Shown here in pieces: positions 26,948 through 33,758 of a stretch of DNA of 40,384 nucleotides. Position 1 is the stretch's first letter, and every line of letters starts with the position of its first letter. A model generated the notes under the pieces. It was given only the letters and a program-made list of their open reading frames with translations, ran no database searches and had not been told where the DNA came from. A program made the translations under genes and the position numbers. Location: NCBI GenBank assembly GCA_934591745.1, contig CAKTPQ010000017.1, positions 1-40,384 on the forward strand, read 5' to 3'. This DNA comes from an uncultured Oscillospiraceae bacterium (GTDB lineage Bacteria > Bacillota > Clostridia > Oscillospirales > Oscillospiraceae).

Positions 26948-27145
26948 TTACAGGTTCTTCTCGTAGGACTCGATCATCTTCTTGACCATCTGGCCGCCGA
27001 CAGAGCCGGCCTCGCGGCTGGTCAGGTCGCCATTGTAGCCGTTCTTCAGGTTGACGCCCACCTCGCTGGCAGCCTCCATCTTAAACTTATCCATCGCGGC
27101 CTTGGCCTCGGGGATGTTCAGCTTGTTGGTATTCTTACTGGACAT
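26948..27145 (-). CDS. Alpha/beta-type small acid-soluble spore protein
   Basis: 65 residues, basic-amphipathic, with the two SASP motifs: an N-terminal helix with AKAAMDKFKMEAASEVGV and the C-terminal LTSREAGSVGGQMVKKMIE. These proteins coat and protect spore DNA from UV and heat. The presence of the gene is the best direct evidence that the organism sporulates. Shine-Dalgarno AAAGGAG lies about nine bases before ATG. SASP genes are normally read by sigma-G; GCATA occurs upstream (minus strand, about 27,232) but no matching -10 was found at the right distance. Confidence 0.95.
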   Translation of the reverse strand: MSSKNTNKLNIPEAKAAMDKFKMEAASEVGVNLKNGYNGDLTSREAGSVGGQMVKKMIESYEKNL

Positions 27146-27270: not shown

Positions 27271-27337
27271 CATTTCATACCGAAAAAATATACATTTCAG
27301 GAAGGGCCTGTGCCGACGGAGTGAAACGTGCTATACT
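27271..27337 (+). promoter_or_regulatory. LytTR-type direct-repeat operator and promoter of the peptide-protease operon
   Basis: Two CATTTC repeats start 22 bases apart (27271 and 27293), separated by an A-rich stretch; TATACT (27332-27337) follows 39 bases after the second repeat. The -35 region (about 27309-27314, TGTGCC) is poor, as expected of an activator-dependent promoter. Over 31 bases (27271-27301) the element matches the one at 31624-31654 with only three differences. Two direct repeats about two helical turns apart are the usual LytTR-domain recognition pattern (AgrA, VirR). The 349-base gap 27146-27494 holds this element, the spore gene leader and the small reading frame at 27401. 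Confidence 0.72.
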
Positions 27338-27400
27338 GACGGAAACGGAGAGCTGCGGCGCACCGCGCCAAAAATCACATGTATGATGCGGGAGGAAATC

Positions 27401-27484
27401 ATGGGATCGCTCATTTACAACAAAAAGTTCTGTCCCGGCGGCAGCTTTGCATGGTGTCTGCCGGTCGGAGAAAGGGAGATGTGA
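27401..27484 (+). CDS. Possible 27-residue Cys-containing peptide upstream of the protease
   Basis: ATG at 27401 with a strong GGGAGG Shine-Dalgarno five to six bases upstream, reading 27 codons to TGA at 27482-27484. The peptide has basic residues KK at 8-9, the core [12 protein letters not shown] with cysteines at 11 and 19, and GERE near the end. The protease start lies 10 bases after its stop, so translation could be coupled. The Shine-Dalgarno is about 100 bases from the protease start and serves no other gene. It could be a signal peptide for the nearby kinase, a protease substrate or inhibitor, or a non-functional leader. No known family was recognised, and no modifying enzyme is adjacent. 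Confidence 0.45.
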
Positions 27485-27494
27485 GGTGCGTGAT

Positions 27495-29450
27495 ATGAAG
27501 AAAGGACGTTTTTTTGCGCTGCTTCTGGCGTTGGTGATGGCCCTGGGCCTGACGGCCTGCGGCAATGAGCCGCTGGACGCGCCCGACGGTGTGTTGGACG
27601 GCAGCTGGGCGGTATACTGGTATCTCTGCGGCAGCGATCTGGAGTCGGAGGGAGGCTTCGCTACGGATGACCTGAACGAACTGCTGGAGGCGGAACTGCC
27701 GGAGAACGTGACGGTGGTCATTGAGACAGGCGGCGCGGCGGAGTGGTGGAACGAGACGGTGGACGCCTCGGTGCTCCAGCGCTACGTGTACAACAGCGAC
27801 GGGCTGACGCTGGTGGATGAGCAGCCCTCCGCCAGCATGGGAGACAGCGGGACGCTGGCGGACTTCCTGCGCTTTGCAAAGGAAAACTACCCCGCCGACA
27901 AAACGGCGGTGGTGTTCTGGAACCACGGCGGCGGCTCGGTGTCCGGCGCGTCCTTTGATGAGCTGTATGACTATGATTCCCTGACGTTGGACGAGATGTA
28001 CACCGCCTTTACAGAGGTGTGGGAGCCTTCACTGGAGGCGGGACAGCAGCCGCTGGAACTGGTGGGTTTTGACACCTGCCTGATGGCCACGGTGGACGTG
28101 GCCTATACCTTCTGCGATCTGAGCCGCTATCTGGTGGCGTCAGAGGAGACAGAGCCGGCCAACGGCTGGTATTACTCCAAATGGGTGGGCGCACTGGCGG
28201 AGGATCCGTCCATGGACGGCGCGGCACTGGGCAGCGTCATCTGCGATGCCTACTACGAGGGCTGCCGGGAGGCAGGCACGGAGGACGACGTCACCCTGTC
28301 CGTCACCGATCTGTCCCGGCTGGAGGGACTGATGAACGCCTATGAGCGTTTCGGCACGGAGGCACTGACCGCCGCCTGTAACGATCCGGCGTTCTTCACC
28401 CGGTTTGCCCGGGTGGCGGCGCAGAGCGAGAACTACGGCGGCAATACCCGTGAGCAGGGCTACACCAACATGGTGGATCTGGGGCACATGGCCCGGCAGA
28501 GCGGCGATTTGCTGCCGTCGGCGCAGGAGGTACTGGACGCGCTGGACGACTGCGTGCTGTATCAGGTCAAGGGACCTTACCGCGGCGAGGCCACGGGGCT
28601 TTCCTGCTACTACTCCTATAACGGGGATGTGGATGATCTGAGGGGATATGCCGGCATCGGTGCCGGGCAGGCGTTCAAATACTTCTACGAGTACGAGCTG
28701 ACCGGGGAACTGACGGAGGACGGCGCTGCCTTTTTGGCCGACATGGACATCGACGCGTCGGCGCTGCCGCCGGTGCAGAGCCTGTCCGACAGCGGCTGGG
28801 ACAACGCACCGCTGACTCTCAGCGATGACGGCTGCGCCGTGCTGACACTGGGGCCGGAGGCAGAGGAACTGCTGGCATCCGTGGATTTCTCCCTGTACTA
28901 CGCGGACGAGGAGAGTGACATCCTGCTGATGCTGGGCATCGACAACGACATCATCGCAGACTGGGACACTGGTGTGTTCACCGACAACTTCCGGGGTGTG
29001 TGGGGTGCCATTGACGGCCACATGGTCTACATGGAGCTGAGCTATGAGGGCGACGACTACAACCTCTACGCCGTGCCGGTCCTGTTGGACGGCGAGGCCT
29101 ATTATCTGCAGGTGGTCTACGACTTCGCGGAGGAGGCCTGGAGCATCCTGGGCGCCCGGCAGGGCATCGACGACAGCGGCATGGCCGACAAGGAGCTGCG
29201 GCTGCTGCGGGAGGGCGATGAGCTGACCACCGTGTGGTATGTGTCCAGCATTTCCGGCGATGACGACTTCGCGCCCTATGAGATCGACACCTTCACCGTG
29301 ACGGCGGATACCTGTTTTGACGAGATGGAGCTGCCGGACGGGCAGTATTTCATGATGTTTGAGCTGCGGGACGCCATGGACAACTGCGCCTATTCTCAGG
29401 CGGCGGTATTTACCTGCGAGGGCGGGGAGATCACCACCACCGTGGGCTGA
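27495..29450 (+). CDS. Clostripain-family (C11) cysteine peptidase, lipoprotein
   Basis: 651 residues. The signal peptide ends in a lipobox LTAC (Cys22), so the enzyme should be anchored on the outer face of the membrane. The C11 catalytic dyad is visible: His144 in FWNHGGG and Cys195 in GFDTCLMA, 51 residues apart. [12 protein letters not shown] near residue 40 is also typical. Characterised C11 enzymes cut after Arg or Lys and often self-activate. The C-terminal 220 residues (from about residue 430) form an acidic beta-rich region with no recognised domain. GAGGTG precedes ATG 27495. The gene is controlled from the direct-repeat promoter at 27271-27337 and ends at a very strong terminator. 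Confidence 0.9.
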
Positions 29451-29463
29451 TGGGTGCAGATCG

Positions 29464-29516
29464 ACACATAAAAAGGAGGCCCTGCGGCACAGCCGCAGGG
29501 CCTCCTTTTTATGTGT
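29464..29516. terminator. Very strong bidirectional terminator between protease and histidine kinase
   Basis: A perfect 24-bp stem (29464-29487 with 29493-29516) and the 5-base loop CACAG. It includes the first base of the kinase stop codon. Both arms carry a run of five A or T, so it can stop transcription from both convergent operons. Confidence 0.95.
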
Positions 29517-30832
29517 TATCCGCCTGCTGTGCCGCCTTTGACCGGCAGCATCACCCGCAGGAGGAACGTGCCGTCCTCCGTCAGGAACTGACACAGACCG
29601 CCGCGCCGCTGGGCGATGGCCTGTATGCTGCGGCATCCATAGCCGTGCCCGGCCTCATCGGTGACAGGCACACCGTTCCGCAGTACCGGCGGCGTGTCGT
29701 AGGGATTGCGCACCTCAATGAGCAGCTTCCCCAGGCGGATACCGCAGTACAGCGCCACCACCCGGCGCGCCGGCGGTTCCAGCCCGCCGGCCACCCGCAG
29801 CGCATTCTCCAGCGCGTTGGACAGCAGGGAGCACAGCTCCGTATCGCTGATGGGAAGATCGCCCGGCACCCGGGCGTCCACCTGCAGCTGCACGCCGGCG
29901 CGCTCCGCCCGCTGTGCAAAGGCGGAGCACAGCAGGTTCACCGTGTCATTTTCGCAGAACCGGCGGGTGGTGATGGACTCCACATCGGACTGTACCCGCT
30001 GGATATAGTCCTGTGCCTGCTGGGATTGCCCGGCGGCCAGCAGACCGCCGATCATGTTCAGATGGTGGCGCATATCGTGCTGGTACACCGCCGTCTGCAT
30101 TTCGGATGCCCGCATGGCGTCCATTTCCTGCTGGGACTGCTTCAGCTCCACCTCCAGCAGGGAGCGCTGCACCTCCGCGCTGGAGCGCTTCTGCGTTTCA
30201 ATGTGGAAAGCAGGCAGGAACAGGATATAGAACGTGATGAGCGCCGTGGGCAGAAACTCGTTCAGCGCCTGGATACCGGAATACAGCGCGTCGGAGTACA
30301 CCGTGGTGGCGTAATCGAAGATGTAATAGGTACACGGCAGACTGCCGAAAAGCAGCAGTGCCCACCGCGAGTAGGTCATGGTGCTGTACGCCGCCGCCAC
30401 AAAGTACTGCCGGAGCAGGCAGAAGATCCCGCAGATCAGCAGGATATACACGATGTCGGCGGCCACGGCGTTATGGGTCAGAGCCTCCATGGCGATGCTG
30501 CCCCACCGGGGCGGCTGGCAGCACAGATAGGCCGTGCAGGTGCTGACGATGGCCACGCCCCATGACCGCTTCAGCACCGTTACCAGGATCAGTACCAGCG
30601 GCAGGTGTACGATGATGGGGTAGATCCGCTTGACGCCGGCCTCACCCAGAGTCAGCCAGCCCAGCGACTGTATCAGCAGGAATACCGGACACAGGCACAG
30701 GATCACCCGCTTCTGCTTCGCCGTTTCGCAGCCGCCGGCCAGGGCCACGTCCAGCACCAGCCCGTAGATCAGCACCAGCCCGTAGTTGAAGATGTCCAGC
30801 GCAGAGGCGATGTTCATATCAGATGCGGTCAT
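29516..30832 (-). CDS. GHKL-domain sensor histidine kinase (AgrC/VirS-like)
   Basis: 438 residues. The N-terminal half (about 1-215) has six or seven hydrophobic segments and no extracellular domain of size, as in peptide-sensing AgrC-type kinases. The cytoplasmic half has a coiled coil, the phospho-acceptor His252 in YQHDMRHHLNMI, the N-box LLSNALENAL and the G-box GHGYGCRSI. It overlaps the response regulator gene by ATGA, showing coupled translation. No agrB, agrD or peptide exporter sits in this block. Its signal is unknown; the small reading frame at 27401 is one candidate. Confidence 0.92.
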   Translation of the reverse strand: MTASDMNIASALDIFNYGLVLIYGLVLDVALAGGCETAKQKRVILCLCPVFLLIQSLGWLTLGEAGVKRIYPIIVHLPLVLILVTVLKRSWGVAIVSTCTAYLCCQPPRWGSIAMEALTHNAVAADIVYILLICGIFCLLRQYFVAAAYSTMTYSRWALLLFGSLPCTYYIFDYATTVYSDALYSGIQALNEFLPTALITFYILFLPAFHIETQKRSSAEVQRSLLEVELKQSQQEMDAMRASEMQTAVYQHDMRHHLNMIGGLLAAGQSQQAQDYIQRVQSDVESITTRRFCENDTVNLLCSAFAQRAERAGVQLQVDARVPGDLPISDTELCSLLSNALENALRVAGGLEPPARRVVALYCGIRLGKLLIEVRNPYDTPPVLRNGVPVTDEAGHGYGCRSIQAIAQRRGGLCQFLTEDGTFLLRVMLPVKGGTAGG

Positions 30833-31551
30833 GCGTCCTCCCTCTCCGCGAACAGCAGCTTCATATAGTCCTTCTGCAGCTGGGGATACAGCAGCCGCGA
30901 TACCGGCAGACTGACGCCGGAGAACGTGTGAACCCCGGCGGGGGATAATTCGTCGATCTGCAGCATGTTCACGATGTATGACCGGTGGATGCGCATGAAT
31001 TCCGGCCGCGCCAGCAGCAGCGCCTCGTAGTCCTTCAGGGAGCCTACCACCTCCCGCACCTGTCCGTCGGTCATGTTGAAGTACAGGTGCTTGCCGCTGA
31101 CCTCCACATAGGCCAGCTGGGAGAACGGCACCCGCACCAGCGTGGCACCGGCCTTCAGCGTCAGACCGTCCTGGGGCCGCTGCTCACGCAGGGACAGTCT
31201 GTCCAGCACCGGGAACAGCAGCTTGCCGCTGATAGGCTTCAGCAGGTACTCCAGCGTCCGCACGCCGTAGCTCTCGTAGGCAAAGCCGGGGGAGGAGGTG
31301 AGGAACACGATGTCGGCGGCGGCGTCGAAGGTACGGATCTCCCGTGCGGCCTCCATGCCGTCGATGCCGGGCATCATCACGTCCAGCAGGTACAGGGTGA
31401 ACCGCTCGTGCCGGGCGGCGTCCAGCATATCGCCTGCGCTGCGGAACGCCCGGCAGCGCAGGGGGATGCGCCGCTCCGTCTGCCATTGCTCCAGCAGCGC
31501 GGTCAGCGCGGTCAGCTCTTCGACCTGGTCATCACAGACGGCGATATACAT
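30829..31551 (-). CDS. LytTR-family response regulator
   Basis: 240 residues. The receiver domain (1-120) has the acidic pair Asp7-Asp8, the phosphorylation site Asp57 in LLDVMMPG and the KP motif in YLLKPIS. The C-terminal LytTR DNA-binding domain (about 140-238) has VEVSGKHLYFNM, FMRIHRSYIVNM and LPVSRLLYPQL. The start at 31551 (MYIAVCDDQ) has an AAAGGAGG Shine-Dalgarno; a longer in-frame extension would run through the operator region and is rejected. LytTR proteins bind pairs of direct repeats, and two near-identical pairs flank this locus. Confidence 0.94.
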   Translation of the reverse strand: MYIAVCDDQVEELTALTALLEQWQTERRIPLRCRAFRSAGDMLDAARHERFTLYLLDVMMPGIDGMEAAREIRTFDAAADIVFLTSSPGFAYESYGVRTLEYLLKPISGKLLFPVLDRLSLREQRPQDGLTLKAGATLVRVPFSQLAYVEVSGKHLYFNMTDGQVREVVGSLKDYEALLLARPEFMRIHRSYIVNMLQIDELSPAGVHTFSGVSLPVSRLLYPQLQKDYMKLLFAEREDA

Positions 31552-31582
31552 GGGCGGCACCTCCTTTTCCTCGTCTGCACTG

Positions 31583-31610
31583 ATATTACCATATCCGCCA
31601 CGGCTTGAAA
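31583..31610 (-). promoter_or_regulatory. Possible promoter of the response regulator-kinase operon
   Basis: On the minus strand TTTCAA (31610-31605), 16 bases, TAATAT (31588-31583). The direct-repeat operator of the divergent operon begins 14 bases upstream of this -35, so the regulator could control its own synthesis. Confidence 0.45.
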
Positions 31611-31623
31611 AGTCGCAATATGA

Positions 31624-31691
31624 CATTTCGTGTCGAAAAAATATACATTTCAGGGCGGCGGTGTCCAACGCTGCCAAAAAGCGGTTATACT
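31624..31691 (+). promoter_or_regulatory. Second LytTR-type operator and promoter (mini-LemA/bactofilin operon)
   Basis: CATTTC repeats start at 31624 and 31646, 22 bases apart, and TATACT (31686-31691) lies 40 bases after the second. The last 20 bases of the element, GAAAAAATATACATTTCAGG, are identical to the first copy at 27282-27301. The surrounding sequence is not similar, so the conserved piece is the operator itself. The -35 region is again far from consensus. Confidence 0.75.
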
Positions 31692-31722: not shown

Positions 31723-32064
31723 ATGAGTTCGATGTCGCCATGGATCGCATGGCTGATCGCTGCGATCAGTACCGCCGCCTTCGTGACCCTCTGGTTCTGG
31801 GAGGTGCGCCGTATCCTCAACGACAGAAAAAGCACCGTGGACAGCGCCGCCGGACAACTGGACGCCTTTCGCCGCCGTGCGGCGGGGACGTGCTGTGACG
31901 GAGAATTGACGCAGGTGCTGCGGCGCAGCGAAAGCATTTACTATCAGGCGGTACACAATTACGACCGTACACTCAGCCGCCCGTGGATCTATCTACCGGC
32001 ACGACTCATGGGCTTCCGCAGGATACCGCAGCCGGCGGACGAAAATTATCAGACGACCATGTAA
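31723..32064 (+). CDS. Small membrane protein with a LemA-like C-terminus
   Basis: 113 residues: one membrane helix at about 6-26 (PWIAWLIAAISTAAFVTLWF), then a charged helical region and the C-terminal stretch YYQAVHNYDRTLSRPWIYLPARLMGF. That stretch resembles the end of LemA proteins, where RDYN...FP...LFGF is conserved; the first long helices of LemA are missing. It looks like a truncated or miniature LemA-like protein, but assignment rests on one motif. Start after GGGAGAGGGGG. It is the first gene after the second operator and lies 19 bases before the bactofilin gene. Confidence 0.65.
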   Translation: MSSMSPWIAWLIAAISTAAFVTLWFWEVRRILNDRKSTVDSAAGQLDAFRRRAAGTCCDGELTQVLRRSESIYYQAVHNYDRTLSRPWIYLPARLMGFRRIPQPADENYQTTM

Positions 32065-32083: not shown

Positions 32084-32686
32084 ATGGACAACAAGATCAT
32101 CAAGCAGACCGCATATGAGCTGTTCGGCATCGGGGCCGGACCGGAGGATGCCAAGTCCGGCAAGCGCGCCGCGCAGCCCGCGCCGCAGCCCGCAAAGCCC
32201 GTCCAGTCCGCGCCTGTGGCCGCGCCGGCTCCTGTCAAACCCGCTGCCAGCTATCTGGCACCCGGCACCGTGCTGGAGGGCCAGCTCCGCTCCGAGGGCG
32301 ATCTGGAGCTTGCCGGCAGCTTCAAGGGCAGCATCACCACCAACGGCAGCGTCATGCTCCGTGCCAACACCAAGAGCACCGTCAGCGCCGGCAACCTGAA
32401 CCTGTCCGGCTGCACGCTGGATGGTGACGTCACCGTTACCGGCACCGTCACCATCAGCGAAGATTCCCGCATCAACGGCAATGTCACCGCCCGCGAGCTG
32501 CAGTGCGCCGGCGAGATTACCGGCGATCTGAGCATCTCTGGCAACACTACGCTGGAGGAGAAGGCCCGCATCAACGGCAGCGTCGTCACCGGCACCATGT
32601 CCGTGGCCAGGGGCGCCGCCATCTGCGGCAGCGTGGAGATGGGCAAGAAGCCCGCCAAGAAGCAGCAGGACGCCCAGCAGGCGTAA
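32084..32686 (+). CDS. Bactofilin-family polymer-forming protein
   Basis: 200 residues. A short N-terminal segment and a Pro/Ala-rich linker (about 28-55) lead to a beta-helix (about 57-185) made of repeated turns such as LEGQLRSEGDLELAGSFKGSITTNGSVML and GDVTVTGTVTISEDSRINGNVTA, then a basic tail. Bactofilins self-assemble into nucleotide-free filaments at the membrane and shape cells or anchor proteins. AGAAGGAGAGGG precedes the ATG. Under the LytTR-type promoter with the mini-LemA protein, which could be its membrane partner. Confidence 0.9.
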   Translation: MDNKIIKQTAYELFGIGAGPEDAKSGKRAAQPAPQPAKPVQSAPVAAPAPVKPAASYLAPGTVLEGQLRSEGDLELAGSFKGSITTNGSVMLRANTKSTVSAGNLNLSGCTLDGDVTVTGTVTISEDSRINGNVTARELQCAGEITGDLSISGNTTLEEKARINGSVVTGTMSVARGAAICGSVEMGKKPAKKQQDAQQA

Positions 32687-32864: not shown

Positions 32865-33758
32865 ATGAAAGACGGAAACAGGAAAAGCACACCTCGGCGG
32901 GTAGTGGTATATGCATTGCTGCTGGCGGCGGCCATTGCGGCGGGTATCGCCGCCAAGGCCTTTGATTTCAAGGAGCTGGCCGCCGTGTTCACCGTGAACG
33001 GCGCGGCCCTGCTGAAGTTGGCGCTGCTGGTGTTCGGCGTTCTGCTGGCGGAGAACCTGATCGTGCTGGTGCTGGGCCTTATCAAGCCCGCCAGCCACCG
33101 GGCACGCTCCGTGCTGAGCCTGACGGCCAGCCTGGTGCGGTATGTGGCGGTCATTGCCATTTTGTGCGGCGGCTTGAGCATTCTGGGCGTCAGCATCGGC
33201 ACCGTCATCGCCAGTGTCGGCGTGCTGGCTCTGATCGTGGGCTTCAGCGCCGAGAGCCTTATCGCCGACGTGGTCATCGGCACGTTCATGCTGCTGGAGA
33301 ACCAGTACAACGTGGGAGACATCGTAGAGGTCAATGGCTTCCGGGGCACCGTTACCAGCATCGGCATCCGCACCACCTGCATCACCGATTCCGGCGACAA
33401 CGTGAAGATCATCAACAATTCGGAGATGAAGAACATCCTCAATCGTTCCGACAACTCCTCCAAGGCGGTGTGTGATATCTCCATTCCCTACGAAACGGAC
33501 ATCGAGGCACTGGAGGCCCGGCTTCCCGCTCTGCTGGAGGAGATCTACCGGAACCACACCGACACCATGGAGGGCGTGCCCGTATATCTGGGCGTACAGG
33601 CGCTGGAGGCCTCCGGCATTCTGCTGCGCTTTCTGGTGAACGTGTCCGAGCGGAACGTATATTCCACGGCCCGCATCCTGAACCATGACCTGCTGCTGGG
33701 TTTCCGCCGCCTGGGCGTGGAGTGCCCGTACCCACAGCTGGACGTACACAGCAAGTAA
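32865..33758 (+). CDS. Mechanosensitive ion channel of the MscS family
   Basis: 297 residues: about three membrane helices in the first 150 residues and the typical pore helix and beta-domain (VLALIVGFSAESLIADVVIGTFMLLE, then QYNVGDIVEVNGFRGTVTSIGIRTT). The channel opens under membrane tension and releases solutes during hypo-osmotic shock. Start at 32865 with AAGGAG about nine bases upstream; the promoter rules out longer in-frame forms. Six bases separate its stop from the next gene. Confidence 0.93.
   Translation: MKDGNRKSTPRRVVVYALLLAAAIAAGIAAKAFDFKELAAVFTVNGAALLKLALLVFGVLLAENLIVLVLGLIKPASHRARSVLSLTASLVRYVAVIAILCGGLSILGVSIGTVIASVGVLALIVGFSAESLIADVVIGTFMLLENQYNVGDIVEVNGFRGTVTSIGIRTTCITDSGDNVKIINNSEMKNILNRSDNSSKAVCDISIPYETDIEALEARLPALLEEIYRNHTDTMEGVPVYLGVQALEASGILLRFLVNVSERNVYSTARILNHDLLLGFRRLGVECPYPQLDVHSK

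Follow-up and report, generated by a model that had tools for sequence, protein, structure and literature searches.

Within the window, a 40,384-nucleotide (nt) stretch of contig CAKTPQ010000017.1 from an uncultured Oscillospiraceae bacterium (assembly GCA_934591745.1), two near-identical direct-repeat elements bracket the genes of a LytTR response regulator and a GHKL sensor kinase. Taken whole, comparison with relatives makes it very probable that these elements are LytTR-type direct-repeat operators through which the linked kinase and regulator activate the genes downstream. The initial annotation had read them as LytTR operators, and this is supported by their conservation beside orthologous regulators, by a regular spacing to predicted −10 hexamers and by a core of the type found with the Escherichia coli regulator YpdB. 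We infer from sequence comparison that the window's own regulator is the binder and that the direction of control is activation.

In the proposed mechanism, the kinase would sense a signal and phosphorylate its linked regulator, two molecules of which would bind the repeats head to tail and recruit RNA polymerase to a weak promoter downstream. Operator 1 would in this way switch on a clostripain-family protease, and operator 2 a small LemA-like protein together with a bactofilin; further targets of this regulator in relatives would be S-layer-homology (SLH) proteins, a SHOCT protein, an L,D-transpeptidase and, in some cases, a second response regulator.

Paired repeats and their promoters

Both elements read on the plus strand and carry CATTTC-N16-CATTTC with a period of 22 bp, as first described, at 27271..27298 (operator 1, upstream of the clostripain gene) and 31624..31651 (operator 2, reading away from the regulator). 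Compared within the window, the 31-base stretches 27271-27301 and 31624-31654 agree at 28 of 31 positions, the three differences originally counted, and share the inner spacer GAAAAAATATACATTTCAGG; the flanks beyond the two repeat cores are unrelated, again as had been noted. The exact pattern occurs only at these two places in the window, compared with a mean of 0.003 and a maximum of 1 in 300 Markov-1 controls, and among same-strand 31-mer pairs of the window this one ranks first (28 identities versus 22–24 in 20 Markov-1 controls, the comparison using a 12-nt seed). With up to three mismatches allowed, the window holds 30 matches where 18.7 are expected, so that only the exact matches stand out.

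A −10-like TATACT hexamer follows each element on the plus strand, at 27332..27337 (33 nt after operator 1) and 31686..31691 (34 nt after operator 2). The distance of 39–40 bases given in the initial annotation is measured from where the second CATTTC starts rather than from its end; the hexamers themselves stand, as does the poor −35, no good one being evident by eye beside either. Across 27 sites from the window and its relatives, a TA[TC]NN[TC] hexamer begins 33–35 nt past the second repeat in 25, the exceptions being loci L018 and L020; three of the 27 (L117, L140 and L145) were chosen partly for their promoter look, and the count is 22/24 when they are excluded. The predicted −10 spacing thus gives the element the fixed placement upstream of a putative promoter that marks LytTR operators. 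Its architecture, 9-nt repeats with 12 or 13 nt between them, falls within the form described for LytTR sites in passages of PMC4847170: two repeats of 9–11 nt lying 11–13 nt apart, with no common consensus.

Recurrence beside regulator orthologs and across genomes

A scan of genome contigs, taking the best 80 of 139 relatives, yielded 79 distinct loci, of which 20 carry close regulator orthologs (62–79% identity). Within the 250 nt upstream of these orthologs we searched for CATTTC pairs with at most one mismatch at all spacings from 4 to 30. Such a pair precedes the regulator in 15 of the 20, always reading away from it, with a spacing of 16 in nine and of 15 in six; none lies at spacing 14 or 17, elsewhere in the 4–30 range no spacing occurs more than once among the 20, and pairs facing the regulator number 0/20. 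The repeats are thus conserved at orthologous loci. Two further orthologs (L015 and L018) show degenerate pairs by eye, and the exact spacing-16 pattern is absent from the 59 other loci (0.97 Mb). The six orthologs with a 21-bp period (L001, L003, L006, L013, L017 and L020) keep the −10 distance about unchanged in five cases, L020 having no hexamer at 33–35 nt.

Because the bare core was unspecific in a loose scan, genome searches relied on longer patterns and on a sequence model, R1, built from 24 sites with the degenerate sites L006, L015 and L018 excluded. R1 scores operator 1 at 42.1 bits (expectation value, E, 1.8e-12) and operator 2 at 51 bits (E 2.8e-15), both operators being themselves part of the model; its calibration was shortened and all its E-values are rough. 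At E≤1e-3, R1 finds 30 matches in 20 genomes, comprising 20 training sites and 10 new ones, nine of which precede a same-strand open reading frame (ORF) of at least 135 amino acids (three of these ORFs are cut by the end of the locus). The one-mismatch pattern recurs in 12 of 400 family genomes, at 17 places versus 3 in the control; in an inspection that left out G315 and G248, the promoter spacing was seen at the sites of G019, G226, G079 and G005, while L141, L142, L143, L146, L147 and L148 were unconvincing and were taken as chance. Among the two-mismatch sites, L121, L122 and L131 were inspected and dropped.

The initial annotation had treated occurrence of the element at promoters unlinked to the regulator as a sign against its reading; several such promoters were found, but the strong sites all lie in genomes with a homolog of the regulator. 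This was assessed in 200 genomes from the family of Oscillibacter sp. MSJ-31 (G019) and 200 from that of G010, with regulator cut-offs of E≤1e-55 and E≤1e-45, respectively, and with only part of the candidates scored in both searches. The regulator is present in seven of the former, which include all genomes with R1 matches at E<1e-6 (G001, G005, G019 and G079), and in four of the latter, which include both such genomes (G010 and G595). Combined, 6/6 strong-site genomes fall among 11/400 regulator-positive ones (hypergeometric 8e-11), a figure that is partly circular in that G001, G005, G010 and G019 were selected because they carry the regulator and training sites came from five of the six, and that depends on a 1e-6 line set after the results were seen. 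Without the four chosen genomes, 2/2 fall among 7/396 (~3e-4 by hand). G595 contributed no training site, and its own site (E 4.6e-10) immediately precedes a regulator with 45% identity, reading away from it; G079, whose training site came from the pattern search alone, has its site directly upstream of a 42% regulator, in the same orientation. G226, likewise found by pattern alone, has a regulator 69% identical.

Besides this circularity, several observations weigh against the operators being as we describe them. In most of 20 genomes the loose pattern CATTTC-N8–28-CATTTC lies far above its reversed control; the stricter pattern with at most two mismatches matches 30 times, spread over 13 of these genomes, versus 11 for its reversed control, so part of the 30 is chance; and several of the one-mismatch matches fall inside coding sequence. 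No element lies directly upstream of the regulator in three of the 20 orthologs (L002, L014 and L016) or in G226, and five of the 11 regulator-positive genomes lack a strong site (G002, whose best match is 2.2e-4, G149, G190, G472 and G550). At E<1e-3 the regulator-negative G552 and G542 also match, as does the regulator-positive G002, and weak matches (E≤0.01) occur in 9 regulator-negative genomes of G019's family (E 0.002–0.009) and 14 of G010's family (E 4e-4 to 0.0095). These weak matches in genomes without a regulator match are counted as background; two of the nine, G033 and G043, have weaker regulator matches (1.9e-33 and 2.1e-40). One new R1 site, in G014, has no clear adjacent gene, and R1 does not detect the YpdB site at yhjX of E. 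coli.

Two other explanations of the paired elements were weighed. The more serious accepts them as LytTR operators and makes a paralogous regulator, rather than the linked one, their main binder: L008, L012 and G004:C102 have a second response regulator after the element, paralogs lie nearby in L010, and by eye a weak match in G556 (E 0.00135) and the site of G595 adjoin a further regulator-like ORF. The element is nonetheless linked to this very regulator in 15/20 orthologs, and in G595 and G079 too, where identity has fallen to 45% and 42%, and every strong-site genome (6/6) has a homolog of it, which leaves a paralog as the main binder improbable. The other explanation, a recent local duplication of a promoter segment with no shared regulator, draws on the identity of the inner spacer in the two copies; the sequence around the cores is unrelated, however, and we reject it as scarcely credible because relatives carry the same element at matching places.

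As an addition that does not compete with operators controlled by the linked regulator, the element may also act backwards and let the regulator control its own gene from the same site. The window's candidate regulator promoter is an extended −10, TGGTAATAT, at 31583..31591 on the minus strand, and most orthologs have one of the form TGNTANNNT. Fourteen of 17 loci place it 31–37 nt from the element, and the other three 46–47 nt, about one helical turn farther; the 17 comprise 16 orthologs and the window, L004 being left out for want of such a −10, and in L006, L019 and L020 one of two candidates was chosen. This placement fits the autoregulation that the initial annotation allowed for, but L014 and L016, which show no element, have similar −10s, the repeat is polar, and the distances spread more widely than on the downstream side. 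We hold autoregulation to be a tentative possibility, somewhat on the doubtful side.

Predicted targets and gene layout

The response regulator (30829..31551, minus strand, with its start read as the ATG at 31551; scanned as 30829-31554) combines a receiver domain (PF00072, E 6.8e-13) with a LytTR DNA-binding domain (PF04397, E 1.1e-13), the composition of a LytTR-type response regulator. The adjoining kinase (29516..30832, minus strand) matches the GHKL family PF14501 above cut-off, has five hydrophobic segments in a simple scan and carries QHDMRHHLN around the likely phospho-histidine; multi-pass membrane kinase and GHKL ATPase domain together fit a GHKL two-component system. Clostripain, a Peptidase_C11 protease (27495..29450, plus strand; PF03415, E 4.8e-43, scanned as 27483-29450) with a lipoprotein-like N-terminus (lipobox by eye), lies between operator 1 and the kinase. 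A perfect 20-pair hairpin with a T run (29469..29511) separates the two genes and is a probable common terminator for both. Pfam thus bears out the regulator, kinase, protease and bactofilin first named here; the description of outward-facing operons fails, because both elements read on the plus strand and clostripain converges on the kinase gene over the shared hairpin.

Downstream of operator 2, the first gene of the operon divergent from the regulator encodes a small protein (31723..32064, plus strand) with a hydrophobic N-terminus by eye and a weak C-terminal likeness to LemA, and is followed by bactofilin (32084..32686, plus strand; PF04519, E 3.4e-23) and a MscS-type mechanosensitive channel (32865..33758, plus strand; PF00924, scanned as 32871-33758), which is possibly part of the same transcription unit. 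The name mini-LemA, initially given to the small protein, is weakly supported: it has no Pfam family at E≤0.001, LemA included, and structure 2etd matches its C-terminus only (E 0.034). Eleven homologs gave LemA in one (E 0.01) and DUF4381 in five (best E 0.00053). The protein is conserved in relatives (30–53% identity, 10 homologs).

Upstream of operator 1 and on the opposite strand lies a gene for a small acid-soluble spore protein (26948-27145; Pfam), so the organism probably sporulates. Between operator 1 and clostripain, a 27-codon ORF (27401..27484, plus strand) with a ribosome site that is good by eye resembles the start of a SHOCT/DUF4428-like gene and is probably a remnant of one: in 11 of 5,000 shuffles the alignment to the gene start is equally good, and single tblastn matches at gene starts are weak (E 0.4 and above). 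Clostripain homologs at E≤1e-10 number 14, spread over 11 of 22 genomes, and four are distant (34–39% identity); clostripain follows a SHOCT/DUF4428-like gene in G001, G004, G226 and G008, and a small LemA-like gene in G005; a SHOCT-like start is similarly present in G016. An operator precedes the clostripain group in G001, G005 and G016, none was found near clostripain in G226 or G010, and in G004 the contig ends at the group. As the window keeps a SHOCT-like start, operator 1 probably once drove a SHOCT–clostripain operon. The same resemblance led us to set aside the ORF at 27401 as a candidate peptide signal.

The single complete cassette initially envisaged proves too narrow a description, since sites in relatives are spread genome-wide, with seven predicted in Oscillibacter sp. 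MSJ-31. The stricter pattern has six matches in that genome (control 0), standing upstream of bactofilin, two similar SLH-type proteins (Pfam on one), the SLH protein encoded divergently from the regulator, and one small LemA-like and one SHOCT/DUF4428-like protein. New R1 sites precede two tandem SLH-type proteins (G002; Pfam on one), a small lipoprotein-like protein (G016), a YkuD–SLH protein (G013:C95), a SHOCT protein with clostripain after it (G001), secreted-looking proteins without family (G019:C1 and G013:C89), a 157-amino-acid ORF without family (G010) and a second response regulator (G004); a weaker match in G010:C139 (E 0.038) precedes an SPFH protein. SLH domains were found by Pfam in 9 of 19 target proteins from relatives; some of the 19 are truncated where the locus ends, and that of L011 is encoded by the second gene past its site. 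The 19 were scanned from 22 listed targets, L187, L173 and L013 being left out, and signal peptides and lipoboxes are assignments by eye. Predicted targets in relatives thus appear to be largely envelope genes: SLH proteins, bactofilin, L,D-transpeptidase and clostripain. Second response regulators downstream of the element (L008, 3719-4420; L012, 61-717; L229, 1929-2333) suggest a cascade in some relatives; those of L008 and L012 resemble the LytTR regulator over most of their length, and that of L229 is cut after the receiver domain.

L163 (G014:C50) holds a pair of operator-like sites separated by ~560 bp and scoring E 4.4e-5 and 0.015; one precedes what by eye is a small Arc-like protein, and the other has no obvious same-strand gene. 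In G190 (L193), a repeat of ACCGTTC type with a 22-bp period was seen by eye upstream of the 45% regulator; we take this repeat to be closer to the classical LytTR consensus.

The predictions supply an operator code and a prospective cell-envelope regulon for a two-component system of little-studied Clostridia, many of which, by their record titles, are known from gut metagenomes only. We found no description of such a regulon in the literature, judged by titles and the beginnings of abstracts. Both signal and output become testable in a relative such as Oscillibacter sp. MSJ-31 with its seven predicted sites.

Relation to known LytTR systems

One close likeness is to E. coli YpdA/YpdB (annotated PyrS/PyrR), whose regulator is of the LytTR type like that of the window. 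Passages of PMC4847170 report binding of YpdB at yhjX to a direct repeat of GGCATTTCAT, a sequence that matches the window's first repeat letter for letter; in the MG1655 genome the yhjX site reads GGCATTTCATTCCGTTCTGATGGCATTTCATGCCG, and the window's first repeat reads GGCATTTCATACCG. The yhjX site is a direct repeat with half-sites CATTTCATTCCG and CATTTCATGCCG and a 21-bp period, sharing the CATTTC core with the window, and TATGGT, read here as its −10, follows 35 nt after the second repeat. The two systems differ in that YpdB and the window regulator share only 25% identity over 204 aligned columns, that the same passages call YpdA/YpdB LytS/LytTR-type whereas the window kinase is GHKL, and that the YpdB target discussed in them is yhjX rather than an envelope regulon. 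A CATTTC-core code common to YpdB and a clostridial GHKL/LytTR system, the latter acting as a master activator of the cell surface (SLH proteins, bactofilin, clostripain and L,D-transpeptidase, with a second-regulator cascade in some genomes) in mostly gut-associated Clostridia, is a proposal that we advance with slightly less than even confidence in its entirety. A shared core would bear on how LytTR domains choose their DNA, given the statement in those passages that LytTR sites have no common consensus.

Clostridium perfringens VirSR likewise joins a kinase to a regulator that acts on pairs of direct repeats. In passages of PMC2838878, alpha-clostripain is the sole VirR target conserved in all strains compared, a parallel output of another such system. 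VirR boxes themselves differ, with 12-bp repeats (PMC2688746) lying 7–8 nt apart (PMC2838878), and toxin genes and regulatory RNAs make up the other known VirR targets that are named there. The LytTR Regulatory Systems HdrRM and BrsRM likewise have direct repeats, of 9 bp with 12 (11–13) bp between them, often 10 bp upstream of the −35, according to portions of PMC6193735. Their regulator is paired with an inhibitory membrane protein, whereas the window has a receiver domain and a GHKL kinase (Pfam), and membership in that class was discarded on this ground.

In domain composition the window regulator resembles ComE, whose structure 4cbv matches it along residues 3–226 (E 6.6e-9). AgrA and ComE combine a receiver with a LytTR domain, as the window regulator does, and have a GHKL kinase as partner. 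No peptide-signal genes were recognised beside the window system, no dedicated search having been made. Set beside YpdB, VirR and these regulators, the window's kinase, regulator and paired repeats are a further example of an already known kind of regulation.

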